Virus record (IMG/VR): IMGVR_UViG_3300025652_000043
Coordinates: 1 to 64,000 of that record
DNA from: a virus
Reading direction: 5' to 3' (one strand)
Length of the DNA: 64,000 nucleotides
In this document: positions 13,837 to 63,742 of the stretch, piece by piece
Layout of the letters: each line of letters opens with the position of its first letter
Position numbering within the stretch: the first letter of the stretch is position 1
The notes under the pieces: generated by a model
Database searches by the model: none
Seen by the model: the letters and a program-made list of their open reading frames with translations, nothing else
Told to the model about the DNA's origin: nothing
Program-made: the position numbers and the translations under genes

Positions 13837-16800
13837 ATGGATGATATTTTTGAAGAAGAAAACCTATTAAAACATGGTTACAAAATTTCACCTTTTGGTG
13901 CTGCTTATTCTGATTTACAAGGTAATTATCTTGAAAGTATCACTATAGATGGACAAACTAAAAGTTCACTCATAGATAAAAAAGAATATACAAGACTTTA
14001 TGATGAGCACTATAACTTACAAAATTCAGGATATAAATTTGACCCTTATAGTGGAGTTCCAGAAAGCAATCAAAAACAACAAGGTTTAGCTAAAATGTAT
14101 GCTGAAGAGTTTAGAAAAGATGCTGCAAATGCTGTTATACCTATTGAAGTAAAAGAAAGTGAAGAGTTTAAAGAAACTTTTAAAGAAGAAAGTAAATTAA
14201 AAGAGGAACAAGGTGAAAAAGTTTACCCAACTGTAGAAGCACAAGAGGAAGCAGCAGAAAAGGGAACTATGTATGAAAGTTTCACTGAGGAAGATATGTC
14301 AAAAGAAGACAAATCAGACCTCAAATCTTTAATGGCACAAAAAGAAAAATTACTAGAAGAAGACCCTGATTTTGATGCAGAATCTGCACAATCTATTGAA
14401 GATAGAAATAAAGAGGCAGAGCAATATGGTAAATATAATCCTATACAAGTATTTGCAGGTCTTCAAAATATTATTGATTCAGCTATTGCACAAGTAGTTC
14501 CTACAGGAACAGGAATGAAATCTGAAGAAAATAAATTAAAACTAGAAGAATTAAATAAAGAAATAGCAAGTAAAAAAAGAGGATTTGTAGCTAATAGTAA
14601 ACAAAGACTTAAGGGTTCAATAGCAGATATTGAACAAAGAAGAGAAGAACTTAATACTTTAGCACATCCACAAAAATCTACTAGATTAGACTATGCACAA
14701 AAAATTCTTGAAGAAACTTTATGGACATTAGAAGACCATGAAAATAATTCTTGGATGCCACAAACTGTATTTTCTATGTACAATGCTATTGACCAAGGTA
14801 CTAGAGGTATTGTTGGATTAGTTTCTGAAGTTCCTACAATATTACATTTGAAATATGATGCAACTAATGATAATGATATTGATGAAAGTCAATTTCTTGT
14901 AGCTGATGCATTAAGAATGAGACAAAAAGTTACTAATGCCAATTTAAATCAAAGTGATGCTCATAAATTTATTATAGGAATAAATGAGTCTCTTAAATTT
15001 GTTGGCTTTTCTAAAGTAGGTAGAAATGCAGGTACAACAGTAGCTAATAACTTGTTAGCTAAAGGTCTTCCAAAAGTTACAACTAAATTAGGTAAAAAAG
15101 CAGTTAAATGGGGGTCTGATCTTGCAGGATTTGGTACTCAGTTAGTTATGCATCCTAGTACTTATTATTCCTCAGCAGATAGATATGCAGGAGATATTAC
15201 TCTTGATGAAGAAGGTAATATTATTACTGATTTAAAAACAACTAGGACTCTTTTAAGAGAGTTAAATGAAAGTCTTGAATTAATTGCTGATGAGCAAAGT
15301 AAAGGTGAAAACTCTGTTTACGATAAAACACAATTAGATATAAATAAAGGTATCATAGAAGATGCTATAGAAAAAGCAAAAGCTAATGCTCCTGCAGGGT
15401 TAGTTGAAGCTTTTGCATATGGTTTAACTGAAACAGGAAAAGAATTATTTTTTGAAACTCAATTAACTAAAGGTTTAAACTTTTTAGGGTCTAAACTTAA
15501 AAAAATTCCTAGTTTAAGTAAATTAGGAAAAAATATAGATGATATTTCTGCAGTAAGTAAATCTAAAGGAGCAATGGATGCTCAAAGAAGATTTGCAGGA
15601 GTGTCTAATACTGGTACTAGAGTTATTGGGAATTTACTTGAAGAAGATTTAGAAGAAGTTGCTGTACAATTAACACCTACAATTGGAGAACTCAATTGGG
15701 AAGATTATAAAAGACAAGCTAGTGAAGTTCTTACGTTTGATTTTCATGCTAAAGTATTAGCTCAAACTTTTGTGATGAATAAGGGTTTCCAAGCTTTAGG
15801 TAAAACTAATGAATTTTTAGATGACCATTCTTGGAGAAATAATTTTACTGCAATGATAGCTGCTGGTAAAAAGGGGGTCACTAAATTTGATTATGTTGCT
15901 GAAAGAAAAGCAGCTTATGATAGAAAGGTATTTCTAAAAACATCTTTCACTAAACTTGGAGATGCTTCTAGTAGAGTAATTGCAGAAGATATCTTAATGA
16001 AAACAGGTGAAGGCACAATCACCATACAAGATTATCATAATAAAATTTCTGAACTTAATAGAGCTGGAGACCCTATAGGTGCTATGGAACTTAAGAGAGA
16101 TTTATTACGTAAACAAGCTATACATGCAGCTAATTCTGGAGCTACTAAAGAATTCTCATTAGCCTTAAAAAAACTTTCTCTAAACACAAAAGTAGATGGG
16201 CAAACAAGACAGCTTGCAAAAGATATGTTGGAAGAAGCTAATGACATTCAAAATGATGTAAGTACCTATCCAAATTCAGAAGAAATTTTAGATTATAAAT
16301 CTAAATTAAAATATTCCTCCAAAACTTTAGAAGAAGTGGAAATGGCACAACTTAAAGTGCAATTTGATGATATGTATGAGAATACTAGAAATCTTGAAGA
16401 GGAGTTAGCCAAAGAAGATTTGACTTTACAAGACTTTTCTTCAAATGAAAAAGTAGAAGATTTTGATGCAAAAGTAAATAGAGTTGTTGAAAATTTAAGT
16501 GAACATGAGATTCAATTTCTTAAATTAGAAACTGTAAAAACCACTCTTAAAAATTCTCAAAAACAAGTAAATAAATTACTTAAAGATGCCACTTCTCCTG
16601 AAACTCAAGCTATTATACATGAGAGAGGTAAATATTTTAAAACTATTGATGAGGTTAATAGAAGATATTTTAATGGAAAAATGACTGCAAGTGAGTTTAA
16701 AAAACTTGTAGCTCCTACATTAGAAAAAAGAGGAGTAAGCGGAATTTTAAAAGGTGGAAAATTAGTTGAGATAAATAATAATATTTATAAGGCTAAAAAG

Positions 16801-19800
16801 AAAGGTGAAATACAGGCTCAAGCTATAAAAAGTCAAAGAACTAAACTTAGAAAACAAGCTGAACAAGAGGCTAAAGACCTTGCACAACCAGTAGAAGAGA
16901 AAATTGAAATAGTAAATGATGTAATTGAAGAACAAAGGGAAAATTTAAAAAAAGCACAGGAAGAGAATGATGTAGAGGGTATTAAAAAAGCAACAGACTT
17001 GTTAGAATATTGGGCTATAGAAGTAGCTAAATTAGAGAAAGAGGGAAGTACACCTGCTGAAGTTGAAACTAAGAAAGCTAAAATAGAGGCTGAAAGACAA
17101 GCTGAGTTAAAAAGAATGACTTTTAATGAACTTTTTGAACTTTTTAAAGGGCATCAAGTGGGACTTATAGGTAATAAAAAAGAATTAGAGGGTGATACTT
17201 TTAGGATAATAGACACAGTTAAAGAAGGAAAAGAAGTTGTAATAGAGAGACAAAAACCTGATGGCACTATTAGTTCTTTTGGAATACCAGTTGGAAAAGA
17301 TTTTAAGAAATTTGAAGAAAAATATAAAGATGTTGAATTATCTATAGAAGATATAAATAAAAAATATGATGCTGAAGTAGCTACTTTAGAATCTCAACCA
17401 ACACAACAAACTAGTGAGGTTAAAGTTACACCTGCTGAATCTATTGTACAACCAGTAGAACAAAAAACAGATGAACAAAAGAAGTATGAAGCTTCTTTAA
17501 ATAAAACTGCTGAAGTTATAGATACTGTAATATCTCAAGAAGCAGACAGTAAAATTCAAGTTAATGATAAGGATGAGATAGATTTTAATGACATACAAGA
17601 TTTTGATTTACCTATTGAACAGGAACATGAAGAAACTGTTGAAGCTCTTAAATTATTTGCACAAGAGTATGAAGCTGTTTACAAAGTAAAACCAACATTT
17701 AAAGATTGGTGGGAAGCTACTATTGAAGCAGAAGATGGTAATATTTATGTATTTGATAAGAACTTACTTGAGTGGACTGCTGCACAGTGGAATTTTGCTA
17801 AACTAGGAAATAGTAATTGGCAAAAAGTATGGAAAGACAATTATACAAATAATTCTAAAATAAGAGTTAGATTTAAAAGTATAAGAGAGGCTTATAGAAG
17901 TAATGAAGAACTTGCAAAAGTTAATACTGAAATAGTAAAAACTCCTATAGTGACTTCTAATACTCCAAAGTCCCCTGCAACTGGAAATCCTATGGCTCTT
18001 GTTTCAGGAGATGTCACTCCAAATGTTGGCAAGACAATGACAACAAATGTTAAAGGAAATTTTAGTGCTATTAAATATCAAAATGAAAAAGAAGAATCTG
18101 GAGAAATCACTGTATACACTAAAGAGGATAAAAATAAAGAGATTCCTCAATTAAATGAAAATACACCTTTAGAAATTAAAGAACTTTTACACCCTGATAA
18201 TCTTAATCCAGGGGATAAAGTTAACATTAGAGTAATTGATGAAAGTGAATGGTCTACTATTCTTGTGAATATATATAATGATAAAGGTATAATAGACAAG
18301 AGAATCTCTTTTCAAGAGTGGTATGACACTAATTCTAAAGAATGGTTGAAGGATAATAAAGGTAGTACACTTGAAGATTTTCAAAATAGTGAACTTTTTA
18401 TTTCTAGGATACCTATGTTTTATACTAATCCTGCTACCAACAATGATGTTATGTTTGTTGCTGATACAGCTTGGTATAATCAGTACAGTATGGGAGACCC
18501 TGATACTGATAATAAAGTAATAGATTTAAATAATCCATCTAGCACAGTACAAGAATCTGTAAAATTAGGTAAAAAGAATGCTTTACAGTTAAGACAAGAT
18601 GTTATAATAGGGGAAGTTACAGAAGGTATTATAGAAACCAAAACAAGTGGTTTTGCTCAAAAAATTCCTGGTAATTTACCAGTTAAAACTTTATGGGAAG
18701 TAGCTAGAGATAATCAAATAGTATTATTTGATGGTTCAGATTTTGTAGATTTAGAAGGTAATACTATAAATACCAATACTCATGTTATACTTAACATGGA
18801 TAAAGTTTTAGAAAATTTCCAAAATGCAGGATTTAATAATGGAACTAAATCTACTATGCAATCTATGTATTTATCTCCTGATCACAAGACTACAGAAAAT
18901 GGAGAAGTAATACAACACTACAAAGCTTTTATGGTTCTTAGAACAGATGAAGGTGGTAGGGAAAAACAAGCTATGCGGGAAGATGTAGAAACTGCAAAGC
19001 TTATATTAAGTGCACATGAAGCTTTAACTACTAAAGAGACAGTAAATGGTATAACTTATGAAAAAGCCTTAGAGCTTAGAGATATGTTATTAGACAACAG
19101 TGATGTTGCATTAAACATAGCTGAAGCTGAAGATGCATATGGAATGGTTAGAGGATTAGTTGCCTTAGAAACTACTAATGGATTAATTGATTATCCAAGT
19201 TCAGGAGGAAATAAAAAATATAAAAGTTTTTTAACTAAACTTCTTGAAGACAAGTTAAAGGTTATTCAAAACACTTCTAAAGATGTCCCAACTGCCAGAG
19301 GAATTTCAATTAAAAATAATGATGGTACTTTTAAAGTTGAAGTTAAACCTTATGTAGACTTCTTAAAAACTAGACTTTCTACTAATATTATGAGTTATAA
19401 TATGGGTACAGAAGAAAATTGGGCTTCTACCCATAATATTCAACCTATTATTAAAATTAATCCTGTTAGGTCTGAAGAGGTAAAATCTATACAAGAGAAT
19501 CAACAAGTTGTAAATGAAACTCCTACAGAAACTAAAGTAGAGGACATTAAAGAGGATGTTGCAAAAGCAAGAGAACTAGAACAGCTTAAGGAATTAGACA
19601 AGGAAAAAGACTCTTTCTTAGCAAGTATCAATGCTTTAAATGAGACTACCCCAAGTACAGATGAACTTTCAGATGAAAGTTTACCTGAAATGGATGATGT
19701 TACTTTAATAAGAGACTCTCTTAAAACTATAGGGGATCTTGCTGCTAAAGACCAAAGAGATATTATACAGTTTCTTAGAGATTCTCTTTCATTAGTTGTA

Positions 19801-22800
19801 GGAGTGTCTAAAAAAGATTATAAAAGAGCTGCAAATAAGTTTTTTAAAGATACTTATGTTCCTACACTTGAAAAATGTAAAGAATATATTGAAAAGTATG
19901 AAGGTTTTCATAAAACTTTTCCTGATGATAAAGGTGTACAAGCTACTTTATCTACCTTAAGGTCTCAAGAAATAAATTTTGAAAATATTCTAAAGAATGA
20001 AGAGGCATTTTTTGATAAAGCTTATGAAGAAGGATTAAAAAAAGGTAATATTAAAGATTTAGAGGACACTGATGACACTATTAAAAAGGAAGACTTAGAC
20101 CATAATGAAGAGGAGTCTTTAACTAGAAATTTCTATAGAAGTTCTAATGAAGATATACATAAAGAAAAAATAGGAGCTAAATTAAAAAGAGTTTTTACAG
20201 GAATACCTACAGGTGAAAAAGGTTTTATGGGTACACCTTTATATGAAGATTTTGATATGATTTACAATTTCATAGCTACTTATATCTCTAGTCCATTGCC
20301 TACTGATCCATCTTTTAATGAAATGGTTAAAAGACTTAAACTTATTGAAGCAAAAGTGCCATGGATGAAAGAAGTTATAAAAAGGTTAGAAGAGTCTCCA
20401 CAAGATACTAAAGCTAGTTTTGTTAGTAATATGTATAAATACTCTGCTAATGCAAAATTTGTAATGTTCAATAAAAACAAAGAAAAAGGTATTGAGTCTT
20501 CTTTATGGTTTAGTAATAGAAACAATCATATAAGAAAAATCAAAGAAAGTTGGAATGAAAATTTTAAAAGAAGTAAAATAGTTAAAGGCAATGTACTTGA
20601 TAAGAAAATATTAAGGGGTTTAGCAGAGCAATATGAATCTTGGAATCCACAAAATAAACATTCTGAATCTGATGAGGTATTAAAAGATTGGTTAGCTGCA
20701 TTTGGATTAGAGTTTTCAGATGGTACATGGGAAGACATAAAGCTTGGAAAACTAGTGTTAACTCATAAATCAGGTAGTAAGCCAATTAGTTTTGAGAACC
20801 TATTTAAACCTACATCAAAAGGTAGAAATTATCAATTATTTGATTCTTTATATAAATATGCTAGAGATAATTCTAAAAAAGAAGGAGATTTAGATTTTAC
20901 TGAAAATGCAAAACTCTATCCTTTAGAAGACTTAAGCACAACAATAAAAGGATTACTAGATTTAGAAGTGCTTTATAATACTTCTACAAAAAGTATTACA
21001 AGAAGAGATGGTGGAAAAACTGTTAGTGAACTGGTATATCCTAGTTTTTTCTTAGATACTATGAGAAATCTAATTAGTTCTGCAAATGATACTGAAGGTG
21101 GACATCAATATATTAAGGATTTGATGAATATACCTTTTAGTGAGAATTCAATGATACTTGAATTATTGCTTAAAAATAAAAACTTTAAAGATATCTTTTC
21201 TTATGGTGAAGTTGGATTAATGTCACTTAGAAATCAATATGAAAAACCTAATGACTATGCTAAAATAGAAGACTTATCTCCAATTGACTATGTATTTCAT
21301 CAGATGGCTATGTTTCAAGACATGAAAAATGAAGAAATTTCAGCTACTAGAAAAGGTTTTAAAATGAGAGTGGGAACAGTATCTACTCCTACCAGTTCAG
21401 ATAAAGGTAGAATGATGTTACTTAAAACTGCTGTATATGATTTTTTCAAAACTGATTTAGCTTTTGAGGGAGATGATTTTAAGTTTACTAAAAGGCTTAA
21501 AGAAGTCTTATATGCAGATTTAATTGAACCAGAATTAAATAGAAAAGTTCAACATACTACTCAAGATGTTAAGAAATATAATATAGGTGCAATGAGGTTT
21601 AATAATATGCCTTCACTTAATTATATGGTTAATTCTGAAGGACTTACTGTAGAGAAATTTTTTGAAAACATTGAAGTTCGTACTGAAAAAGGAGAAAATT
21701 TAAGTTCTGAAGAAATTAAAGCAGAATTTAAACTTCAATTTTTTACAGAAGCTACCAATATTCTTGAACAATCTATAAACTCAGAGGTAAATAGTGAATT
21801 AAAAGACATACAAGAATTTGAAGCCAGCAATGACATTAATTCAAGTAAAGACGGAATTAATAGTACAACTTATTTAAATAGAAAAGACCCATTAAATGAG
21901 AGTGACTCTGCTATGCAGAAGAAAAGAAGAGCAATGTTGGATTATGTAATAAATTCTAACATAAGTAATATGAATATTATGCAAACTATTTCAGGTGACC
22001 CTGCAGTTTACTATAATTCTAAGGTTACACCTTCAATAAAAGAGACACATGATTTATCTTCTAAAGAATTAGGAGTGAATATGGGTAAGAGACTTGCACT
22101 TATGATTGCTCCTGGTGTTGCTTTATCTAATTCACATAATGAACAGTATATTCAAATAATGTTAAAAGATAATGATATAGTAGCTCCAAATATAGAGTTA
22201 ATTGCAGGCTACCATTATGGAAAAAGTATACTTAAAAAAACTTATGAGAAAGAAACTTATAAGGTAATTATGGATAAGATTGCTACTGGAGAATATAAAA
22301 ATGATAGCCCTCAATATGAAGAAATAAAGAAAAAATTACCTAAAATAGCACCTTTTTTAAGTATTGAAAATACTGATGCACAGGAATATACAACTCTTGC
22401 AGAGCATTTAAGAGTACTTAAAGGTTTGGGTAGAATAAATAAAGAACAAGAAAAAAATATTTTAGATAACAAGGATAATTTATCTGAAGCTGATATGTCT
22501 TTAATTCTACAACCTATGAAACCTGTTTATACAGGGGAGATTATAGAAAGAGATGAAAAAGGTAAAGTAATGTTTAAGAGAATGGTTTATATTAAATCAT
22601 CTTCATTTCCTTTAATACCTGAATTAATTAATGGTACTCCTCTTGAAGGATTGATGAATACCATGAATGAGATTGAGAAAAAACAAACAAAATTTAATGG
22701 TGGTAAATATGTTGGAGTTAGAGCTTCCTATGGTAGTGCAAATAAATTAGGCTCTACTGAAAGAGAAATAAATCCTACATCTGAAACTGATTTGGCTACA

Positions 22801-25800
22801 CTACTTCAATCTAGAGAAGATGGTAAAGCACCTAAAAGAAGTGCTTTATTATTAAATAGATCAGGTTTTAAAATTCAACAAGATGTACCTAATAAATCAG
22901 CTAAAAATGGTAGTGACCAAGTATCTATGGGTACACAAATTTTTAAACTATTATTTGGTGATGGTCTTGCACAACATAGTACTAAAGAGTTTGATGGACC
23001 ACAATTATTAGAAGACTTTCATAGAGCTTTTTCTAAGATGATTAATATTAATAAAGATGCTCTTGTTGAAGAATTAGGTTTAGATGAAAATTATCAACCT
23101 AAAGATAAAGAGCAATATATGGAAAAGGTAAAAGCTTTACTTCTTAGAGAAGCTAAAGAAAGAAACTTTTCTGAAAATGATATGAAATCTTTTGACATTG
23201 ACTCTAGAAAAAACTCTAAAACTGGAGAGACAATTTACTATTTCAAACAACCTTTATGGTTGTCAGGCAATAGTAATAAGATTGAGGCAATGTTTAATGC
23301 TATTATAAACAATAAAATTTTTAAGCAAAAATTGCCAGGAAATTCATTTGTAGTAGCATCTAATAATGGTATCACTTTACAAACTCAAGAAAATTTTGAT
23401 AAAAAGAATAATAGTATAGTATACTTAGGAGATTATAAAGGTGGAGAATTACAAGGTAATGAAGTACTTGCACCATCTAGAATTAAACTTAATGGTACAC
23501 TTATAGACCTTTTTGAGGTAAGTGAAAGTGGAAACTATAAATATGTTATAAAAGATAAAGATGGTAGTTTTACTATAAATGAGAAAGCTATAGACCCTGC
23601 TTTATTTGAAAATTTTGTATTTAGAACTCCAACATCTTCACATGGTTCAGGTTCAGGTATTAAAATAGTAGGATTTATTCCTGCAGTATTAGGAGATTTA
23701 ATGATTACTCCTAGTAATTTTGTAACTCAAATGGGTCAGGATTTTGATGTAGATAAGCTTACTGCTTATCAGTATCATCATGTCTATAATGAGAAAACTA
23801 AAAGAATAGAAATCTTTAATAAAGGACATAAAGAAGCAAGATTAAGAAGTTTTAGAAATAAGTTATCTGAAATTGATAATAAAATAAAAAAAGAAGATGA
23901 GCTTTCTAAAGAAGAAAAAGATTCTGTAAATAATTTTCTTAAAGCTTTACTTGCAGATTTTAAAAGTTTTGATAATGCTGAAGAAGCTATAACACAAGTA
24001 GATGAGGTAGTTGATAAAATATTAGAAGATGAAGAAATTACTTTAGCAAAGAAAAGGGATTCTCTCTTAGAAAAATTAAGAACTATGCCTGCTAAACTTG
24101 ATATGAAGTTAGCACAAAATATGTTTATAGGTATACATAATAAAATTTACAATAGTACAGATCCTTTTATACAAGCTAAAATTAATAAAGTGCTTTCAAT
24201 GGATACTGCAACTGAACAAGCAGAAAACATTGATAATAAAGTGAGTAGCTCTAAAATAGTTAACTTAACTTCTCCTAAATATCAAAGAGAAAAATTAATT
24301 TCAGGCTCTACTGGTAATTCTGCTATTGGAGTTTATGCTAAAGGAATGACTCTTAATTCTCTTATACAACAACAAAAAGAAGGAGATAAACTTGAAATTT
24401 TAAATGCAGAAGGAGAGAAAAAAGTAAGATTTATAGGAGACTTAAAAACAGAAGGTGAATTTGGTTTACTTCAAAATTTAACTATTTCTCCTAAAAAAGA
24501 AAATGGAGAAAGAATTGAAGCTACAGAAGTTGAAAAATATTTTACCAGACCTTTAGTTGAATCTTTAGATGAAAGGGTGAACACTGCTACTGATAATGAA
24601 AAAGCTCAAATCTTAGGTAGAGTAGGTATTACTAATATCAAAAATGTTGCAGTAGATAATTTCTTAGCTTTACAAGGTATTGATGTTGAAGTAAGAGAAT
24701 TAGATATAGATAAGGGTGAATATGAGGAAGCTAACCCTTTTCATAAAATAGGTTATTTGCCAGGCACTACTGAGCCTGTATATTATAGTGAACATTCTAT
24801 TCCTTACTTATTACACTCTCAACCTATTATAAAAGAGTATTTTAAAAGGTTAAAGAATGGTAGAGCACAAGCAGGAAACTTAACTAAAGATTTAGAAAAA
24901 ACTATACTTGCTGAATTAATGGGAGACTACAAGATTCAACCTAAATTCAGTGAAAATTTTACAGGTAAAAAACTTTTTAATAGTCTGTCTAATAATATAG
25001 ATTCTGAATTTCAAAAAGAAGTTTTATTTCTATATGCAGATTTAATGAAAGATGCAGATAAGGTTAAAGAAATTCAAAGTTCTATTGACTTATCTAACTT
25101 GGGTAAATCTATGTGGGAAGCTAAAGATAAAATAGAAAAATTTAAAGATTTAGCAACTAATAAGGACTTCAAAAACTTAAGTAATCTTATAGGTGATTTT
25201 AATTATAAGGGTGAAGGGGTTTATTTAGGAGATATAAATATAGGAGATGTTAAGAATACTAAAATAGAGGGTCTTTATTTTAAACCCACTACTAATCAAG
25301 GTATAATGGTTAGTACAGCAGTGTCTCTTGCCAGAAACTTATTTTTAAATAACTTTTTTCCTTATTATGACTCTGCTATTGAGATAGCAATGCAAGATAT
25401 TATTACTGTTTCTGGTAAAAAAGATACTCCTCAATTTAGAGAAGAAGTTTTTAATAATATAAAGCAATTTATAACCTCTTCAGATAGTAATGGAATATTC
25501 TTAGACACTACTAAAAATGTTAGAGAAGACTTATTATTTGAAAAAGATGGTCCATCTTTATCTACTTATGTAGCAGACACATTAGGAGTTACTGATAAAG
25601 AATATTCAAAAGGTATCAATTTACTTGGCAAAAATATTCTTATTACTTCTTTTAGTTATGAGAAAGGAGTAAATGGTAAGCCTAGTTTAATAAAGTATGA
25701 TAATACTGCTGCAGGTAATACTAATGAAGAAGATTTTCATGTAGCTATGAAAGAATTGCTAGTAAGTGATTCTCCTTTACCACCTAGAAATGGTAGACCT

Positions 25801-27336
25801 TATACTACTAGAATGTTAGCTCAAGATTTAGTGTCTTATTCTTATGTATCAGGTGGTATAATTAGTGAAGCTATACAATTTCATAAATTTATTCCTTTAG
25901 AGTATTTTGACCAAATTACTGTAAAACAAGTATATAAAGGTGGCAGAGTCATAGAAATGCCTGTAACTAAAAAAATGCAAGGTTATGATACTAGGATAAT
26001 GAATTGGAGTGATATGGGCATTTTAGGTAATTTCACAACACAATTTATCCAAAATAATCCTACTTTTTCAAGAGCATTATCTAAAGAAGATATAAAATCT
26101 TTAAACTATTTAGACAAGACTAAAAGAAGTTTTGAATATTTTGTTAAAGAGGGAGAAATTTTACCAGAATTTGTAAGGTTATCTGGTAACAGTAGAGCTA
26201 AAAACAAACAAGGAAAAACAAGTCTTTATAAATTAGTTTTTGGAAATACTTATGAGCAAATAGATGTATTAGGTGAATTTGGAATGACTGAATATAGTGC
26301 AAAAGAGTCTGATCTAAAAACATCAATAGGAGTGGCTACCCCTAGAAAAGTATTTACTAAAAAGAATGGAGGATTTACTTATACTCAACCTAAGACTGCA
26401 CCTTTTGAAGCAAATACAGGAGATAGTGTACTTACATTACTTAAAAAAGTAAAAGCAGATAATGCATCTTCTAATCCTAATTTATCTGAAATAGCCTCTA
26501 CTTTAATAGACTTATTTGGAGATAAGGCAATGGAACTTCAAATAAAAGTTGAGGAGGATTTAGGACCTGCAGGAGTTTATAGCCCATCTAATAATACTAT
26601 AACACTCAAAAAAGGTTCTAAAAACTTGGGAGAAACTTTTGTACATGAATTTATACATGGAGTAACTTCAAAATACCTTAATCCTTATATAAATCACACT
26701 ACAGGGCAATTAAAAACTGATATTGAAATTCCTAAAGATATTCAAGAGATAAATAGTGTTTTTCTTGAGACTAGAAATTATATTATAGATACCTATAAAG
26801 AGGAATATGATAATTTTATGTTCAAATGGGAGACTTATAAAGATGCAAAAAAGAATAAAGAAGCTTCTGGTGTTATTTTTACTCCGAGAGAGAGAAATTT
26901 ATTCTATTCTACTGTAAATTTAAAAGAGTATCTTGCAATATCATTAGGAAATAATCAACTTTTATTAGAGGAAACTTCAAAAGTACCTTATAAATCTACT
27001 AAGATTACATTGTCAGAGAAATTGATGAAAGTCTTAAATAGAATATTTGAAAGTATGGCAGGAAAAGAGAATAGTTTAGCTGAACAAATTATAGGTAAAA
27101 ATCTTGATTTTATTCAAAAAAGAGCTAATACTTTAGAAAAATCTTCTGAGAAACTTCCATCTGAATTAGATATACAAAGGGATTTAGGTTCTTCTCCAAA
27201 TTTAGATAACTATTATAATGGAAATGCTCCTCCTCTTGACCAATATGGAGACTTATTTGGTAATGACCAAGATATTTCTTTTGAAAAATTAGTAGAAACA
27301 GTAATGTTACCTCTAGGAACAAAACCTTGTAAATAA
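13837..27336 (+). CDS. Giant virion protein with crAss-type RNA polymerase and zinc metallopeptidase motifs
   Basis: The 4,499-aa product is one of the largest phage proteins I would expect to meet. The sequence TQMGQDFDVDKLTAY has the DFDxD signature (D3302, D3304, D3306) of YonO/crAss-family RNA polymerases, whose Asp triad binds the catalytic Mg2+ in a double-psi beta-barrel. In crAss-like phages this polymerase is packaged, injected and transcribes early genes. Near the C-terminus HEFIH (4270-4274) followed by NLKEYLAISL (E4364) fits a gluzincin-type zinc metallopeptidase of the kind carried by large phage polyvalent proteins. The first ~1,200 residues are helical with long coiled-coil Lys/Glu stretches. 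The gene ends in TAATG with the next gene. Exact domain borders cannot be drawn by eye. Confidence 0.8.
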   Translation: MDDIFEEENLLKHGYKISPFGAAYSDLQGNYLESITIDGQTKSSLIDKKEYTRLYDEHYNLQNSGYKFDPYSGVPESNQKQQGLAKMYAEEFRKDAANAVIPIEVKESEEFKETFKEESKLKEEQGEKVYPTVEAQEEAAEKGTMYESFTEEDMSKEDKSDLKSLMAQKEKLLEEDPDFDAESAQSIEDRNKEAEQYGKYNPIQVFAGLQNIIDSAIAQVVPTGTGMKSEENKLKLEELNKEIASKKRGFVANSKQRLKGSIADIEQRREELNTLAHPQKSTRLDYAQKILEETLWTLEDHENNSWMPQTVFSMYNAIDQGTRGIVGLVSEVPTILHLKYDATNDNDIDESQFLVADALRMRQKVTNANLNQSDAHKFIIGINESLKFVGFSKVGRNAGTTVANNLLAKGLPKVTTKLGKKAVKWGSDLAGFGTQLVMHPSTYYSSADRYAGDITLDEEGNIITDLKTTRTLLRELNESLELIADEQSKGENSVYDKTQLDINKGIIEDAIEKAKANAPAGLVEAFAYGLTETGKELFFETQLTKGLNFLGSKLKKIPSLSKLGKNIDDISAVSKSKGAMDAQRRFAGVSNTGTRVIGNLLEEDLEEVAVQLTPTIGELNWEDYKRQASEVLTFDFHAKVLAQTFVMNKGFQALGKTNEFLDDHSWRNNFTAMIAAGKKGVTKFDYVAERKAAYDRKVFLKTSFTKLGDASSRVIAEDILMKTGEGTITIQDYHNKISELNRAGDPIGAMELKRDLLRKQAIHAANSGATKEFSLALKKLSLNTKVDGQTRQLAKDMLEEANDIQNDVSTYPNSEEILDYKSKLKYSSKTLEEVEMAQLKVQFDDMYENTRNLEEELAKEDLTLQDFSSNEKVEDFDAKVNRVVENLSEHEIQFLKLETVKTTLKNSQKQVNKLLKDATSPETQAIIHERGKYFKTIDEVNRRYFNGKMTASEFKKLVAPTLEKRGVSGILKGGKLVEINNNIYKAKKKGEIQAQAIKSQRTKLRKQAEQEAKDLAQPVEEKIEIVNDVIEEQRENLKKAQEENDVEGIKKATDLLEYWAIEVAKLEKEGSTPAEVETKKAKIEAERQAELKRMTFNELFELFKGHQVGLIGNKKELEGDTFRIIDTVKEGKEVVIERQKPDGTISSFGIPVGKDFKKFEEKYKDVELSIEDINKKYDAEVATLESQPTQQTSEVKVTPAESIVQPVEQKTDEQKKYEASLNKTAEVIDTVISQEADSKIQVNDKDEIDFNDIQDFDLPIEQEHEETVEALKLFAQEYEAVYKVKPTFKDWWEATIEAEDGNIYVFDKNLLEWTAAQWNFAKLGNSNWQKVWKDNYTNNSKIRVRFKSIREAYRSNEELAKVNTEIVKTPIVTSNTPKSPATGNPMALVSGDVTPNVGKTMTTNVKGNFSAIKYQNEKEESGEITVYTKEDKNKEIPQLNENTPLEIKELLHPDNLNPGDKVNIRVIDESEWSTILVNIYNDKGIIDKRISFQEWYDTNSKEWLKDNKGSTLEDFQNSELFISRIPMFYTNPATNNDVMFVADTAWYNQYSMGDPDTDNKVIDLNNPSSTVQESVKLGKKNALQLRQDVIIGEVTEGIIETKTSGFAQKIPGNLPVKTLWEVARDNQIVLFDGSDFVDLEGNTINTNTHVILNMDKVLENFQNAGFNNGTKSTMQSMYLSPDHKTTENGEVIQHYKAFMVLRTDEGGREKQAMREDVETAKLILSAHEALTTKETVNGITYEKALELRDMLLDNSDVALNIAEAEDAYGMVRGLVALETTNGLIDYPSSGGNKKYKSFLTKLLEDKLKVIQNTSKDVPTARGISIKNNDGTFKVEVKPYVDFLKTRLSTNIMSYNMGTEENWASTHNIQPIIKINPVRSEEVKSIQENQQVVNETPTETKVEDIKEDVAKARELEQLKELDKEKDSFLASINALNETTPSTDELSDESLPEMDDVTLIRDSLKTIGDLAAKDQRDIIQFLRDSLSLVVGVSKKDYKRAANKFFKDTYVPTLEKCKEYIEKYEGFHKTFPDDKGVQATLSTLRSQEINFENILKNEEAFFDKAYEEGLKKGNIKDLEDTDDTIKKEDLDHNEEESLTRNFYRSSNEDIHKEKIGAKLKRVFTGIPTGEKGFMGTPLYEDFDMIYNFIATYISSPLPTDPSFNEMVKRLKLIEAKVPWMKEVIKRLEESPQDTKASFVSNMYKYSANAKFVMFNKNKEKGIESSLWFSNRNNHIRKIKESWNENFKRSKIVKGNVLDKKILRGLAEQYESWNPQNKHSESDEVLKDWLAAFGLEFSDGTWEDIKLGKLVLTHKSGSKPISFENLFKPTSKGRNYQLFDSLYKYARDNSKKEGDLDFTENAKLYPLEDLSTTIKGLLDLEVLYNTSTKSITRRDGGKTVSELVYPSFFLDTMRNLISSANDTEGGHQYIKDLMNIPFSENSMILELLLKNKNFKDIFSYGEVGLMSLRNQYEKPNDYAKIEDLSPIDYVFHQMAMFQDMKNEEISATRKGFKMRVGTVSTPTSSDKGRMMLLKTAVYDFFKTDLAFEGDDFKFTKRLKEVLYADLIEPELNRKVQHTTQDVKKYNIGAMRFNNMPSLNYMVNSEGLTVEKFFENIEVRTEKGENLSSEEIKAEFKLQFFTEATNILEQSINSEVNSELKDIQEFEASNDINSSKDGINSTTYLNRKDPLNESDSAMQKKRRAMLDYVINSNISNMNIMQTISGDPAVYYNSKVTPSIKETHDLSSKELGVNMGKRLALMIAPGVALSNSHNEQYIQIMLKDNDIVAPNIELIAGYHYGKSILKKTYEKETYKVIMDKIATGEYKNDSPQYEEIKKKLPKIAPFLSIENTDAQEYTTLAEHLRVLKGLGRINKEQEKNILDNKDNLSEADMSLILQPMKPVYTGEIIERDEKGKVMFKRMVYIKSSSFPLIPELINGTPLEGLMNTMNEIEKKQTKFNGGKYVGVRASYGSANKLGSTEREINPTSETDLATLLQSREDGKAPKRSALLLNRSGFKIQQDVPNKSAKNGSDQVSMGTQIFKLLFGDGLAQHSTKEFDGPQLLEDFHRAFSKMININKDALVEELGLDENYQPKDKEQYMEKVKALLLREAKERNFSENDMKSFDIDSRKNSKTGETIYYFKQPLWLSGNSNKIEAMFNAIINNKIFKQKLPGNSFVVASNNGITLQTQENFDKKNNSIVYLGDYKGGELQGNEVLAPSRIKLNGTLIDLFEVSESGNYKYVIKDKDGSFTINEKAIDPALFENFVFRTPTSSHGSGSGIKIVGFIPAVLGDLMITPSNFVTQMGQDFDVDKLTAYQYHHVYNEKTKRIEIFNKGHKEARLRSFRNKLSEIDNKIKKEDELSKEEKDSVNNFLKALLADFKSFDNAEEAITQVDEVVDKILEDEEITLAKKRDSLLEKLRTMPAKLDMKLAQNMFIGIHNKIYNSTDPFIQAKINKVLSMDTATEQAENIDNKVSSSKIVNLTSPKYQREKLISGSTGNSAIGVYAKGMTLNSLIQQQKEGDKLEILNAEGEKKVRFIGDLKTEGEFGLLQNLTISPKKENGERIEATEVEKYFTRPLVESLDERVNTATDNEKAQILGRVGITNIKNVAVDNFLALQGIDVEVRELDIDKGEYEEANPFHKIGYLPGTTEPVYYSEHSIPYLLHSQPIIKEYFKRLKNGRAQAGNLTKDLEKTILAELMGDYKIQPKFSENFTGKKLFNSLSNNIDSEFQKEVLFLYADLMKDADKVKEIQSSIDLSNLGKSMWEAKDKIEKFKDLATNKDFKNLSNLIGDFNYKGEGVYLGDINIGDVKNTKIEGLYFKPTTNQGIMVSTAVSLARNLFLNNFFPYYDSAIEIAMQDIITVSGKKDTPQFREEVFNNIKQFITSSDSNGIFLDTTKNVREDLLFEKDGPSLSTYVADTLGVTDKEYSKGINLLGKNILITSFSYEKGVNGKPSLIKYDNTAAGNTNEEDFHVAMKELLVSDSPLPPRNGRPYTTRMLAQDLVSYSYVSGGIISEAIQFHKFIPLEYFDQITVKQVYKGGRVIEMPVTKKMQGYDTRIMNWSDMGILGNFTTQFIQNNPTFSRALSKEDIKSLNYLDKTKRSFEYFVKEGEILPEFVRLSGNSRAKNKQGKTSLYKLVFGNTYEQIDVLGEFGMTEYSAKESDLKTSIGVATPRKVFTKKNGGFTYTQPKTAPFEANTGDSVLTLLKKVKADNASSNPNLSEIASTLIDLFGDKAMELQIKVEEDLGPAGVYSPSNNTITLKKGSKNLGETFVHEFIHGVTSKYLNPYINHTTGQLKTDIEIPKDIQEINSVFLETRNYIIDTYKEEYDNFMFKWETYKDAKKNKEASGVIFTPRERNLFYSTVNLKEYLAISLGNNQLLLEETSKVPYKSTKITLSEKLMKVLNRIFESMAGKENSLAEQIIGKNLDFIQKRANTLEKSSEKLPSELDIQRDLGSSPNLDNYYNGNAPPLDQYGDLFGNDQDISFEKLVETVMLPLGTKPCK

Positions 27337-59387: not shown

Positions 59388-59469
59388 GTCTTTTGAAGGT
59401 GCAGGAAACTTTGCTTTATAAAAGCTAAATTTAGAGTAAAAAAAAAGAATTAGTTAGGGTAAAATAATA

Positions 59470-59520: not shown

Positions 59521-60138
59521 CTAGTTTCCTACTAATGCTTGACCTGCAACTACATTTTCTCCTGTCATTTCTGATTGGATAACTTGTGAAGCATAGAAAT
59601 CATCTGCTACAGAGTTTCTATTGTCAACATCTTCTTTTGCAACCATTGAAAAGAATACTGATCTATACTGAGGCTTATTGTTATCATCTAAGATAAGCTG
59701 ACCTTCCTTTGCATGATTTTCACCATATCTCACAACTTGTGAGTCTGCAAATTCATCCATTGTTCTTAGTCCTTCTTGTATAGCATAAGCTTGGTTAGAA
59801 GTTAAGATTGGATGATTAGACATTATTCTATATAAACATGAAGTAGAAGGAATTTTCCCTATTACGTCATCTATTGATGCTACTGCAAAAGGAACATCAA
59901 TCCAACATACTCTGTTTTCTTCATTTGTGAACTCTTGTTCAGCAAATCCGAAATCAGCAAGTGCAAATGGGTTATCTTGCAAATCATTCTTGATTTGTTT
60001 AGATGGGTAATAACTGACAGTTTTAATAACTTGTCTCAATTGGGCAGTTTTAGTGCCTTCTTTTTGGTACTCTCCTACATAAAGTTTGTCAACACTAATA
60101 GGTGTTGCATTTGTAGTTTTTCTAATTGAATTTTCCAT
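59521..60138 (-). CDS. Hypothetical early protein, own transcription unit
   Basis: The 205-aa soluble protein has mixed alpha/beta sequence (QLRQVIKTVSYYPSKQIKNDLQDNPF; YRIMSNHPILTSNQAYAIQEGL) and no recognised domain. It has an early promoter motif at 60371-60398, an unusually long leader (about 230 nt) and a strong terminator behind it, which suggests a strongly expressed early product with leader-based control. Confidence 0.6.
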   Translation of the reverse strand: MENSIRKTTNATPISVDKLYVGEYQKEGTKTAQLRQVIKTVSYYPSKQIKNDLQDNPFALADFGFAEQEFTNEENRVCWIDVPFAVASIDDVIGKIPSTSCLYRIMSNHPILTSNQAYAIQEGLRTMDEFADSQVVRYGENHAKEGQLILDDNNKPQYRSVFFSMVAKEDVDNRNSVADDFYASQVIQSEMTGENVVAGQALVGN

Positions 60139-60370
60139 GGTCTTTGTTTTAGATGGAATTAATAAAAATGTGTTTTGGTCTCTAGTTTTACAAGTGAGAA
60201 GCTTGGCATATTAGGCTATGTTACAAAATGTATTTGAATTTTGGTATTGCTAAATATAGTGGTTATTTGGTGACTGTGTTCTATTGCACACATTATCAGC
60301 CTGTTAGCCTTAATACTTGAAGTAATACTTTAACCAATTACATTCTACTTAACAGCTTAACTTTTACTGC
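60139..60370 (-). promoter_or_regulatory. Long leader of the 205-aa gene
   Basis: No credible frame of useful length is present (the best is 25 codons). On the - strand it shares CTGAT-ATGTGTG-AATAGAA-like sequence with the orphan unit at 60418-60640, suggesting that the two are related. Likely an untranslated regulatory leader. Confidence 0.4.
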
Positions 60371-60398
60371 TTGAATTAGTGAGGGTATTGCATTGGGA
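60371..60398 (-). promoter_or_regulatory. Early promoter motif, copy 9
   Basis: On the - strand it reads TGCAATACCCTCACTAATTC, very close to the consensus TTCAATACCCTCACTAGTTT, with TCCCA in front. It directs leftward transcription of the 205-aa gene. Confidence 0.6.
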
Positions 60399-60606: not shown

Positions 60607-60640
60607 GCAAGGACTACATTAAGTTAGTACTTTGCCTTGC
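60607..60640 (-). other. Leader hairpin of the orphan early unit
   Basis: GCAAGG (60607-60612) pairs with CCTTGC (60635-60640). It lies directly downstream of motif copy 8, as in other early leaders. Confidence 0.5.
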
Positions 60641-60669
60641 TTAAATTAGTGAGGGTTTTGAACTGGGAG
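60641..60669 (-). promoter_or_regulatory. Early promoter motif, copy 8
   Basis: On the - strand: TTCAAAACCCTCACTAATTT with TCCCAG in front. It precedes a unit with a hairpin, a 40-aa frame and a terminator. Confidence 0.65.
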
Positions 60670-60744
60670 TTAATAAATAAATAATCCTTTATACCTTTAA
60701 TAGAGTATAAGTTGGGGTATTGAATAAAAAATAAAATAGAAAAG

Positions 60745-60776
60745 AAACAAGATGTCTAATTAAAGACACCTTGTTT
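60745..60776 (-). terminator. Intrinsic terminator after the 102-aa gene
   Basis: AAACAAGATGTCT pairs with AGACACCTTGTTT (13 positions, one mismatch, 6-base loop), then a T-rich run on the - strand. Confidence 0.8.
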
Positions 60777-60779
60777 ATT

Positions 60780-61088
60780 TTAAAGCTCTTGTTCATACTT
60801 AGCAAGAGCTACTTTATCTATTGATTCTTCTGATGCAAATAAAACATTATGTACTTGCATAGATGATTTAATATCTTTAGTAATCTTGTTTATTAATACT
60901 TCAAATGTATTAATATGGTTTTCCAAAAGAATAACTCTTGACTTTTTGTGTGATGGTGTGTTTACCTCCATCTCCACAAATGCCATAGTTAATTCATCCC
61001 ATTGGTCTCTGATTGCTATTAATTCTTGAGTTGACAAGTCAACTGTTTTGCCTACAATGGCATCTGCTCTTCTAAGTTTTAAGTCCAT
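60780..61088 (-). CDS. Helical early protein of unknown function
   Basis: The 102-aa protein is largely helical (LSTQELIAIRDQWDELTMAFVEMEV; LLENHINTFEVLINKITKDIKSSM). It has no Cys and no membrane span. It is a single-gene unit with a promoter motif (copy 7), a leader hairpin, AAATACATATAAATATG at the start and a terminator. No family recognised. Confidence 0.6.
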   Translation of the reverse strand: MDLKLRRADAIVGKTVDLSTQELIAIRDQWDELTMAFVEMEVNTPSHKKSRVILLENHINTFEVLINKITKDIKSSMQVHNVLFASEESIDKVALAKYEQEL

Positions 61089-61108
61089 ATTTATATGTAT
61101 TTATGAAT

Positions 61109-61148
61109 GACAATGTTGTCTATAATTAGTGGGGGTCTTGAATTGAGA
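61109..61148 (-). promoter_or_regulatory. Early promoter motif, copy 7, with leader hairpin
   Basis: The motif (61121-61148) reads TTCAAGACCCCCACTAATTA on the - strand. Immediately after it GACAA/TTGTC (61109-61120) forms a small hairpin in the leader. Confidence 0.6.
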
Positions 61149-61160
61149 TTAAAAGAAAAA

Positions 61161-61190
61161 GAATCCAGGTACATTGCTGTACCCAGATTC
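61161..61190 (-). terminator. Intrinsic terminator after the 84-aa gene
   Basis: GAATC...GGTAC pairs with GTACC...GATTC around ATTGCT, with TTTTTCTTTT after it on the - strand. Confidence 0.75.
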
Positions 61191-61197
61191 TAACATG

Positions 61198-61452
61198 CTA
61201 AAACTCTGCTACTGTATTAGAGTCTTTGATGTTTATCATACATGCTTCCATGTAATCCCCATCCTCTACTAGAAATGCTATTTCAGCATTTATATCAAGG
61301 TCTCCTTGAGCTTTGTAGGTTTTCCCACTTGCTCCTACTACGAAGAACTTACCATTTTTAGGGTTTTTCTTCAACTTCATGCTTGGCTCATTAGCCAATG
61401 ATTTGAACTCACTAATTGTTAGGAATTCAATGTTACCTGATGTATTTTCCAT
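61198..61452 (-). CDS. Small early protein of unknown function
   Basis: The 84-aa protein has a helix (LTISEFKSLANEPSM) and then beta strands (GKFFVVGASGKTYKAQGDL; EIAFLVEDGDYMEACMINI). It may form a small beta barrel. It is a single-gene unit with promoter copy 6, a leader hairpin, AAATACATATATTATG at the start codon and a terminator. No family recognised. Confidence 0.6.
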   Translation of the reverse strand: MENTSGNIEFLTISEFKSLANEPSMKLKKNPKNGKFFVVGASGKTYKAQGDLDINAEIAFLVEDGDYMEACMINIKDSNTVAEF

Positions 61453-61466
61453 AATATATGTATTTA

Positions 61467-61513
61467 GACGACTTTTAGTTTATATCGTCATAAACTAGTA
61501 AGGGTTTTGAATT
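61467..61513 (-). promoter_or_regulatory. Early promoter motif, copy 6, with leader hairpin
   Basis: The motif (61490-61513) reads TTCAAAACCCTTACTAGTTT on the - strand, with TCCCAA in front. GACGA/TCGTC (61467-61489) forms the leader hairpin, followed by AAATACATATATTATG. Confidence 0.65.
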
Positions 61514-61595
61514 GGGAAATGAAGAAAAAATAAACAATATACCTCCACTACTACACTATATTATTATCAACTAATAACCTTATAAAGGTTTAAAA

Positions 61596-61629
61596 AATAA
61601 CCCAAGTGTATCTCTACACTCAGGTTATT
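61596..61629 (-). terminator. Intrinsic terminator after the 138-aa gene
   Basis: AATAACC.AAGTGTA pairs with TACACT.AGGTTATT around TCTC. It is nearly the same as the terminator at 62130-62163, including the flanking TATTAGTTACTAC, so the two gene ends are duplicates. Confidence 0.75.
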
Positions 61630-61634
61630 AGTTA

Positions 61635-62051
61635 CTACATTTTGTCTATGACCTTAGAGGCTTTATGAGATATAGCTTTGTCCTTGAACATCTCTCTCTT
61701 CTCATCAACAGACAACAAGTCTTCACACTCATAGTACAGTTCTCTTTCCTTAGCAAGGTCATTCATTAAGTTTATAATGACAGACTGATGCTTATAAGCT
61801 TTGATAAACTCTGCCAAGTCTTTATCACAAGACTCTATAAGGTCTTCACTTTCCAATAGTTTAGCACCTACTAATCTAGATTGTAAGATACTAATAAGGA
61901 AAACAGATTGACTATCACTAACTGTTTGACCAAAGTCAAGTCTAGTGTTACCAACATTGAATACTGTTCTGAGTTCAACAGCTCTAGCTTCTTGTAGATT
62001 AACATTGATAGTGTCTACACTCAATTTCAACTCAATAAATAATTCTAACAT
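61635..62051 (-). CDS. Helical early protein of unknown function
   Basis: The 138-aa protein starts with a beta-like segment (MLELFIELKLSVDTINVNLQEARAVELRTVF) and continues as acidic helices (LLESEDLIESCDKDLAEFIKAYKHQ; KERELYYECEDLLSVDEKREM). It is a single-gene unit with promoter copy 5, a 9-bp leader hairpin, AAATACATGTATTATG and a terminator. No family recognised. Confidence 0.6.
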   Translation of the reverse strand: MLELFIELKLSVDTINVNLQEARAVELRTVFNVGNTRLDFGQTVSDSQSVFLISILQSRLVGAKLLESEDLIESCDKDLAEFIKAYKHQSVIINLMNDLAKERELYYECEDLLSVDEKREMFKDKAISHKASKVIDKM

Positions 62052-62065
62052 AATACATGTATTTA

Positions 62066-62113
62066 AGATAGTAAATTCAGCTTACTATCTCAAACTAGTC
62101 TGGGTATTGAAAT
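62066..62113 (-). promoter_or_regulatory. Early promoter motif, copy 5, with leader hairpin
   Basis: The motif (62091-62113) reads TTCAATACCCAGACTAGTTT on the - strand. AGATAGTAA/TTACTATCT (62066-62090) is the strongest of the leader hairpins (9 bp), followed by AAATACATGTATTATG. Confidence 0.65.
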
Positions 62114-62129
62114 ATGTAAAAAACATAAA

Positions 62130-62163
62130 AATAACCTAAGTATATCTCTATACTTAGGTTATT
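62130..62163 (-). terminator. Intrinsic terminator after the 119-aa gene
   Basis: AATAACCTAAGTATA pairs perfectly with TATACTTAGGTTATT (15 bp, TCTC loop), followed by T-rich sequence on the - strand. Confidence 0.85.
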
Positions 62164-62168
62164 AGTTA

Positions 62169-62528
62169 CTACTTTTCAATATCAAAGCTCTTATGAACTT
62201 TGTTTAAAGTCTTCTTCATACCTATAGTAGGTATAATTGCAAAGACAACACCTGAAGAGTAGAATGTCAACATGTCTTTTTCAGGTGTACCATGCATACA
62301 CTTAGGATAGAGACCAATACCTGAAGTAGAAGTATGTCCATCTTTCTCTTCAAGATGTACTACCATAGAATATCCTTCCTGATTCTCCATCCACTCTATG
62401 TCAGTAGATATGCCAACTACAGTTTCACCATAGTTATCTCCTCCAAATAGGAAAGCAGAGATGACTAGTTTCTCTAAATCAGAATAGTAAGTTGCTGTTT
62501 CCTTGTTAATGTCAATAAGATTCTTCAT
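62169..62528 (-). CDS. Small early protein of unknown function
   Basis: The 119-aa protein has an N-terminal helix and a beta-rich middle (VGISTDIEWMENQEGYSMVVHLEEK; MLTFYSSGVVFAIIPTIG), with a basic helical end. It is a single-gene unit with promoter copy 4, a leader hairpin, AAATACATATATTATG and a terminator. No family recognised. Confidence 0.6.
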   Translation of the reverse strand: MKNLIDINKETATYYSDLEKLVISAFLFGGDNYGETVVGISTDIEWMENQEGYSMVVHLEEKDGHTSTSGIGLYPKCMHGTPEKDMLTFYSSGVVFAIIPTIGMKKTLNKVHKSFDIEK

Positions 62529-62543
62529 AATATATGTATTTAA

Positions 62544-62590
62544 GATAGCTTTTAGATTATACTATCATAAACTAGTGAAGGTATTGAAAT
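62544..62590 (-). promoter_or_regulatory. Early promoter motif, copy 4, with leader hairpin
   Basis: The motif (62567-62590) reads TTCAATACCTTCACTAGTTT on the - strand. GATAG/CTATC (62544-62566) forms the leader hairpin, followed by AAATACATATATTATG. Confidence 0.65.
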
Positions 62591-62603
62591 ATGTAAAAAA
62601 GAA

Positions 62604-62628
62604 AAGAGTAAGCCAGAAGCCTACTCTT
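62604..62628 (-). terminator. Intrinsic terminator after the 107-aa gene
   Basis: AAGAGTA-GC and GC-TACTCTT pair around a short loop, then TTTCTTTTTT on the - strand. It lies 7 bp after the stop at 62635. Confidence 0.75.
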
Positions 62629-62634
62629 GTTCTC

Positions 62635-62958
62635 TTAGATACCATGTGTTGTGTAACATGTATCCATCATCTCATTTAATGTCCACTCTACTTCATGTTG
62701 AAGTTCTTCTTCAGGTGTATAGTCTTCATCAGGATATTCCACTTCTGCTAGAGTTTCATAAGACTCTCCAGTTTCATGGTCTTTCCAAGTTAAGACATAC
62801 TGGTCTTCACTTATTCTATTAACAGTGATAGAACAACATCCTCTCTTACTTTGTAAGATGTAATGGTCATTTGATGGTTTGCTTAGGAGAGTCAGTCCAA
62901 CTAGGACTGCAACAACTAAGACTAGTACGGGCAATATATATTTGTCTTTCATATTCAT
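62635..62958 (-). CDS. Membrane-anchored acidic early protein
   Basis: The 107-aa protein starts with one membrane helix (YILPVLVLVVAVLVGLTLL, about 7-25), then SKRGCCSITVNRIS, beta strands and a very acidic C-terminal half (EVEYPDEDYTPEEELQHEVEW). The first ATG (62958) is inside the downstream edge of promoter copy 3, so translation from it would need an essentially leaderless message; the in-frame ATG at 62952 is an alternative. No family recognised. Confidence 0.6.
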   Translation of the reverse strand: MNMKDKYILPVLVLVVAVLVGLTLLSKPSNDHYILQSKRGCCSITVNRISEDQYVLTWKDHETGESYETLAEVEYPDEDYTPEEELQHEVEWTLNEMMDTCYTTHGI

Positions 62959-62978
62959 AAATTAGTTAAGGTATTGAG
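62957..62978 (-). promoter_or_regulatory. Early promoter motif, copy 3
   Basis: On the - strand: CTCAATACCTTAACTAATTT, running directly into the ATG of the 107-aa gene. Unlike copies 4-8 it has no leader hairpin. Confidence 0.55.
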
Positions 62979-62989
62979 TGATAGTTAAA

Positions 62990-63014
62990 GGGAGGTGATA
63001 CTATACCACCCCCC
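62990..63014 (-). terminator. Intrinsic terminator after the 100-aa gene
   Basis: GGG-GGTG and CACC-CCC pair around a 9-base loop, followed by TTTAACTAT on the - strand. GC content is high for this window. It begins 9 bp after the stop at 63023. Confidence 0.65.
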
Positions 63015-63022
63015 TATTGGTA

Positions 63023-63325
63023 TTATGTACAGTTATGTACCCAATACTTATGTCCACATATAGGACATTGATGATACTCCAACCAAGCATAGTATGGAGT
63101 GCTATCTAAACCAAGTAGTACTGTCTCAGTTCTATGAATAGCTTCCATCATCTCAGGTACAGGAGCATCACATTGTACACAATGAGTATGAGCATTCACC
63201 TCAATGTTTTCTATCTTGTCTGTACTACAGTCAACAAGATCTCTCCAATCTCTACTGATATGGTCTATAGCATGTATAGTACCATCTATACTCCATATAA
63301 GAGTATAACTTCTTCTTGTGTTCAT
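63023..63325 (-). CDS. Small early protein with zinc-ribbon-like Cys pairs
   Basis: The 100-aa protein has two CxxC pairs: CVQC (about residues 48-51) and CPIC (about 87-90), with extra His and Cys (HTHCVQC; YHQCPICGHKYWVHNC). That is enough for a zinc ribbon. The N-terminal 30 residues (LIWSIDGTIHAIDHISRDW) are beta-like. It has promoter copy 2, a GC-rich leader hairpin and AAATACATATGTGTAATG at the start. Possible target: host transcription or nucleic acid, inferred from the fold type. Confidence 0.6.
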   Translation of the reverse strand: MNTRRSYTLIWSIDGTIHAIDHISRDWRDLVDCSTDKIENIEVNAHTHCVQCDAPVPEMMEAIHRTETVLLGLDSTPYYAWLEYHQCPICGHKYWVHNCT

Positions 63326-63345
63326 TACACATATGTATTTAATAT

Positions 63346-63398
63346 GGCTCTCACTTGTGGGCAGAGAGCCTACTCCCTTACTTAGTCAAGGTGTTGTC
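63346..63398 (-). promoter_or_regulatory. Early promoter motif, copy 2, with leader hairpin
   Basis: The motif (63378-63398) reads GACAACACCTTGACTAAGTA on the - strand, the most divergent of the nine. GGCTCTC/GAGAGCC (63346-63370) is the leader hairpin (7 bp, 11-base loop), then AAATACATATG. Confidence 0.5.
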
Positions 63399-63628: not shown

Positions 63629-63721
63629 GTCTCTATAGGTTAATACTCTCCACCATAATATATATTCATGGCTGAGAATACTTGGTTATCTCCCAATTCA
63701 AGGGGGGAGTTTCCCTTTCCT

Positions 63722-63742
63722 AAAACTAGTGGGGGTGTTGTT
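63722..63742 (-). promoter_or_regulatory. Early promoter motif, copy 1
   Basis: On the - strand: AACAACACCCCCACTAGTTT. It lies about 94 bp upstream of the acidic protein gene; a GGGA-AAC-TCCC hairpin follows in the leader. Confidence 0.55.

Follow-up and report, generated by a model that had tools for sequence, protein, structure and literature searches.

Why would a hairpin be kept behind a promoter-like motif while the letters of its stem change from gene to gene? This question is raised by the window, i.e., the whole 64-kb stretch analyzed out of the 83-kb virus record IMGVR_UViG_3300025652_000043. Between 60.37 and 63.74 kb of the window, a 17-nucleotide (nt) promoter-like motif, CAAnACCynnACTnnTT, occurs ten times on the minus strand, and no copy of similar quality was found elsewhere in the 83-kb record. 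The first-pass annotation had described hairpins directly downstream of six copies and had proposed selection on RNA structure at the 5' end. That proposal is supported by stems locked to the motif, by covarying pairs, and by two sets of leaders that fold better than shuffled sequence. Our reading is that early RNAs of this phage begin with an optional motif-adjacent hairpin that most likely shields the 5' end (probability about 0.5).

Reading the minus strand confirmed the arms of all six hairpins at their positions (Table 1). For the hairpin at 61109-61120, the position stood while the pairing was revised: GACAA/TTGTC would leave a 2-nt loop, and the stem is actually GACA/TGTC with a 4-nt loop. 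Four further motif units (63740, 62976, 60722, and 60390) were identified, two of them with additional plausible stems. Loops range from 4 to 22 nt, and no stem bases are conserved across units. A search of the window with Rfam returned nothing at gathering level and, at a permissive threshold, weak chance-level matches only.

For a set interval after the motif, we took the best uninterrupted stem with a 5' arm beginning there. Against dinucleotide shuffles, stems starting 0 to 6 nt after the motif were enriched in the ten window leaders (Fisher P = 6e-5) and in 25 leaders from four lineages (P = 1.6e-6). The same comparison against sliding same-strand windows, terminators included, gave 0.014 and 6e-4, respectively. 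Since the 0- to 6-nt interval had been picked after the leaders were seen, the offset scan matters: over the 25 leaders, Z was -10.1 at 0 to 6 nt, -2.7 and -3.7 in the neighboring bins, and -2.8 in one bin upstream; the remaining bins stayed within -1 to +1.6. The stems are locked to the end of the motif. Folding of whole leaders gave a weaker signal, with a mean z of about -0.7 over 40 nt.

The claim that pairing is kept while sequence changes had been drawn from six different leaders, which is weaker evidence than a comparison of real homologs. Three near-duplicate leaders in the window (62586, 62109, and 61509) share 86% mean identity in an alignment of 61 columns. Each of them forms all six stem pairs; three of these pairs are kept by double change, and pairing falls to 24 to 61% when the partner arm is slid along the sequence. 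Leaders 62586 and 61509 differ by seven substitutions after the motif; six of these lie in the stem and make up three adjacent compensated pairs. Orthologous leaders add a little to this. In unit B of Fpv3 (a Flavobacterium phage) and G008, TTACAT/ATGTAA becomes TTGCAC/GTGTAA, with one compensated and one wobble-preserving pair. Leaders of the gene for an 84-amino-acid (aa) protein have A-U or G-C at one pair and G-U or A-U at another; one leader in that alignment (G004 4708) belongs to a gene for which homology was not detected. A search with the motif plus TAAATACATA matched only a 100% identical contig, so no covariation was gained from it. The covariation evidence is thus real but limited: near-duplicates and orthologs show in small numbers that pairing matters and sequence does not, and what is left of the earlier claim is a handful of true compensatory pairs; the covariation signal is not large.

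Leaders were classed by the unit to which they belong, after the data had been seen, so the labels carry some hindsight; for the strict 84-aa set, however, and for most members of class II, the basis was tblastn to the downstream gene and not folding. Across different phages, the 84-aa gene (phrog_15744) has structured leaders, with Z of -6.1 over 30 nt and -4.7 for the strictly homology-defined set. Class II leaders, upstream of a 205-aa gene (phrog_16309), are likewise structured in different phages (Z -5.5 over 45 nt). Class I leaders, which belong to the first unit of each block, show structure across 80 nt (Z -5.6) and keep a run of C, and RNAalifold found no common structure among them. 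The window copy (63624-63723, minus strand) and its counterparts in related phages consist of a C-rich leader in which a CCCCC run and a segment downstream are both conserved; this leader is possibly a separate structured RNA.

The hairpin is often present after the motif, and its position is locked, but it is no constant companion. In the relatives, 22 short leaders have a good motif yet show no structure (Z +0.5); most of them are made up of the motif, AGTATTAA, and another 20 nt or so before the ATG. An ATG within 33 nt goes with an unstructured leader on average (mean z +0.1), an ATG at 34 to 70 nt with a mean z of -1.0; over all units, hairpin strength did not correlate with distance to the ATG (Spearman 0.01). 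Because of these 22 leaders, the hairpin is unlikely to be a required part of the promoter; an optional RNA stem-loop at the 5' terminus is the better reading.

Does the structure act as RNA or as DNA? In the 84-aa leaders, the sense strand folds better than the antisense strand (Z -4.7 versus -2.2). At 62976, the ATG lies one base 3' of the motif, which fits transcription starting at or near the motif end and not downstream of a hairpin. Together with the hairpin-free leaders that have a good motif, these two observations make transcribed RNA the better reading, without proving it. The distance from the motif to the stem is observed; that from the RNA 5' end to the stem rests on an inferred start site.

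Several observations weigh against a functional 5'-terminal hairpin. Apart from the 22 unstructured leaders, individual stems are short (several of 4 to 6 base pairs [bp]), and several are nonsignificant alone. Compensatory pairs are few, and the change between Fpv3 and G008 is within chance (two sequences, nonsignificant alone). In the window, sense and antisense strands fold almost equally well (Z -3.5 versus -3.3), so RNA is favored over DNA mainly by the 84-aa-gene leaders. Finally, the 0- to 6-nt test on 65 new leaders from other phages was nonsignificant (Fisher 0.20; 8 of 65 with P < 0.05), because one leader class among them has no hairpin.

The genomic setting is that of a crAss-like phage. 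Two marks of the Crassvirales are present in the window: a crAss-type muzzle protein (PF25731) and a giant virion RNA polymerase with a DFDxD motif (QDFDVDK here). The muzzle family was found in 11 of 13 motif-bearing records tested, the two without it being the shortest contigs, and the polymerase region is encoded in 11 of 11 motif-bearing genomes tested for it. A 901-aa piece of the 4,499-aa window protein matches a 2,184-residue open frame of Cellulophaga phage phi14:2 (E 4e-13). Its size, a DFDxD motif in common, and prior knowledge lead us to regard that frame as the phi14:2 virion RNA polymerase. At the sequence level, the PDB held no match to the polymerase fragment, and megablast of the window against phage records gave no match. 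The late structural genes occupy the plus strand from 63.85 kb on, and the motif block runs on the minus strand from 63.74 kb. Because this place and orientation match the early regions described for crAss001 and phi14:2 (PMC8375218, PMC10136315), we infer that the minus-strand block, which reaches to about 59.5 kb, is the early region. The host is probably a member of the Bacteroidota. Bacteroidota sigma-factor promoters (-33/-7) have a TAnnTTTG -7 box and an upstream TTTG; neither box was seen in a by-eye reading of the aligned motif sites, and the conserved block is contiguous. Terminator-like hairpins lie between several of the units, upstream of motifs and with T-runs; the leader hairpins have no T-runs, and a role for them as terminators was ruled out.

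We propose that the early region is built of small units, each with the 17-nt promoter motif, a leader, one gene, and mostly a terminator-like hairpin. Transcription would probably be by the phage virion RNA polymerase, and with a start within a few bases of the motif end, the RNA would open with the hairpin. In gene leaders, the hairpin would be followed by about 14 to 25 nt of unpaired A/U-rich sequence and then the start codon. If only pairing is kept, stem sequences may drift, and the hairpin, added or lost gene by gene, would most likely shield the 5' end of early RNA from 5'-end-dependent decay. By analogy, mRNA stabilization or 5' protection would be its most likely role, with translation regulation next. 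The anatomy (motif, stem, 14 to 25 unpaired nt, AUG) is that of a 5'-terminal stabilizing stem-loop. In model bacteria, pairing at the 5' end hinders enzymes that start decay there, and Bacillus subtilis RppH needs at least two unpaired 5' nucleotides (PMC3997798).

Leader hairpins of this kind are already known. In the bacterial ompA, papA, and aprE mRNA leaders, as in the phage leaders, a stem-loop lies at or very close to the predicted 5' end and precedes an unpaired stretch for ribosome binding. Unlike them, the phage hairpin reappears from one gene to the next behind a single promoter motif, its stem sequences being unrelated, with a predicted start site and a putative effect on half-life. 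Should it stabilize the mRNA, the phage would have made its own substitute for a 5' cap, one free to evolve in sequence.

It is possible, though on balance doubtful, that the hairpin instead controls translation or binds a phage or host protein, as a standby or insulator element or an autoregulation site. In the window, the hairpin mostly precedes the start codon by 14 to 20 nt, the gap holding a conserved TAAATACATAT stretch, and hairpin presence varies gene by gene, as regulation would. However, stems and loops differ among units, which leaves little for a sequence-specific protein, and the related hairpin-free leaders are ordinary short leaders to the same kind of gene. We consider dyad operators for a DNA-binding repressor hardly credible: the repeats do directly follow a promoter-like motif, but no common site exists when every stem sequence is different, and several stems contain G-U pairs.

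That the inverted repeat is a DNA hairpin recognized by the virion RNA polymerase, as in phage N4, is unlikely. N4 also packages its RNA polymerase and has inverted repeats at its early promoters; their stem positions vary, nonconserved bases being free provided that the hairpin forms (PMC4496689). The window phage encodes a relative of such a polymerase, and the near-equal folding of its antisense strands would also fit. The N4 hairpin, however, is upstream of the start, required, and of a fixed small-loop geometry, whereas the window repeat lies downstream of the conserved 17-nt motif, has a variable loop and no conserved stem bases, and is missing from many leaders that do have the motif. 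At 62976, moreover, the motif is directly followed by the ATG. Slightly less probable again is a structure-specific initiation part, either extruded DNA or nascent RNA at +1, in which the promoter would consist of the 17-nt block plus a sequence-free fold. We consider it just as unlikely as the N4-type hairpin that the stems are mostly chance palindromes in A/T-rich leaders which, with the shared ancestry of duplicated leaders, have no function. The short stems and the nonsignificant out-of-sample test on all new leaders agree with this, but the offset-locked enrichment, three adjacent compensatory pairs in otherwise near-identical leaders, and two separately defined leader classes far from shuffles speak against it. 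Protection of the 5' end by an optional RNA hairpin remains our preferred reading.

The motif itself extends well beyond the window. An exact-pattern scan of IMG/VR identified about twenty further contigs with two to seven copies, in which the family consensus CAAaACCctcACTwATT (17 nt) marks early units and is extended in many relatives by nnnAGyATTAA. In bacterial genomes, 48 single matches were scattered across many phyla, about the chance level. The motif is common to early units of Fipvunavirus (Flavobacterium phages Fpv1-Fpv21, FpV4) and related virus contigs. Fipvunavirus phages share the motif, as CAAAACCCTCACTTATT, and early genes with the window phage and have hairpins after most motifs, but the shared early proteins are only 42 to 46% identical, and the two differ in which genes lie between units, a tmRNA being one of the differences. 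In several motif phages, FpV4 included, a tmRNA gene (RF00023) separates the class II early promoter from the 205-aa gene. Like the window phage, phi14:2 and crAss001 have an early block divergent from the late structural block and a homologous giant virion RNA polymerase; they differ in that a repeat scan found no comparable motif in the early parts examined. As far as we found in the open-access literature, which did not cover the phi14:2 polymerase paper, the promoter family of this crAss-like clade is apparently undescribed. It may prove a more useful result than the hairpin, as natural motif variants with and without a leader hairpin allow a direct test of polymerase recognition and of the contribution of the hairpin.

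Table 1. Motifs, hairpins, and genes in the window, with tmRNA genes of related phages in the last row
Feature	Position	Strand	Remark	Evidence
Virion protein, 4499 aa, with QDFDVDK	13837..27336	+	homolog of phi14:2 virion RNA polymerase; candidate motif user	
Early promoter-like motif, unit 1	63724..63740	-	CAACACCCCCACTAGTT	
Stem CTCCC/GGGAG	63690..63709	-	in the C-rich unit 1 leader (class I); other folds may compete	sequence
Early promoter-like motif	63380..63396	-	CAACACCTTGACTAAGT	
Hairpin GGCTCTC/GAGAGCC	63346..63370	-		z -2.1
Early promoter-like motif, no hairpin	62960..62976	-	107-aa gene ATG one base 3' of motif	
Terminator-like hairpin (intrinsic)	62604..62628	-	between units	
Early promoter-like motif	62570..62586	-	CAATACCTTCACTAGTT	
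Hairpin GATAG/CTATC	62544..62566	-		sequence, stem test, covariation
Terminator-like hairpin (intrinsic)	62130..62163	-	between units	
Early promoter-like motif	62093..62109	-	CAATACCCAGACTAGTT	
Hairpin AGATAGTAA/TTACTATCT	62066..62090	-		z -3.0
Early promoter-like motif	61493..61509	-	CAAAACCCTTACTAGTT	
Hairpin GACGA/TCGTC	61467..61489	-	three pairs doubly changed relative to 62544-62566 stem	
Early protein, 84 aa, phrog_15744	61198..61452	-	orthologous leaders carry hairpins in relatives	
Terminator-like hairpin (intrinsic)	61160..61191	-	between units	
Early promoter-like motif	61124..61140	-	CAAGACCCCCACTAATT	
Hairpin GACA/TGTC	61109..61120	-	4-nt loop	
Terminator-like hairpin (intrinsic)	60745..60776	-	between units	
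Divergent motif	60706..60722	-	CAATACCCCAACTTATA; 62 nt upstream of next motif	
Possible stem TATAC/GTATA	60690..60709	-	starts inside motif; no better than shuffles	z +1.8
Early promoter-like motif	60644..60660	-	CAAAACCCTCACTAATT	
Hairpin GCAAGG/CCTTGC	60607..60640	-	22-nt loop	
Early promoter-like motif, class II unit	60374..60390	-	CAATACCCTCACTAATT; upstream of 205-aa gene	
Hairpin AGCAGT/GCTGTT	60351..60371	-	class II	P 0.057
Early protein, 205 aa, phrog_16309	59521..60138	-	downstream of class II unit, in relatives too	
tmRNA genes, RF00023	L067 5709-6083; L090 2549-2952; L095 7970-8379; L012 3948-4362	-	related phages	

A weaker motif copy, TTTTACCCTAACTAATT, lies at 59448-59464 (minus strand), past the 205-aa gene and its terminator; the genes beyond may be served by this copy. 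In the early region of another record (L016), a match to the RAGATH-1 hammerhead ribozyme (RF03152, 63.9 bits) at 682-750 is located just upstream of the unit at 776. In crAss001 (L140, 5965-6871, minus strand), a noncoding stretch near the TROVE gene holds tRNA-like pieces split by repeats containing TTACTTCAA. Elsewhere in the window, a GroEL gene (phrog_5725; 34901-36791, minus strand) adjoins a 90-aa open frame resembling GroES.

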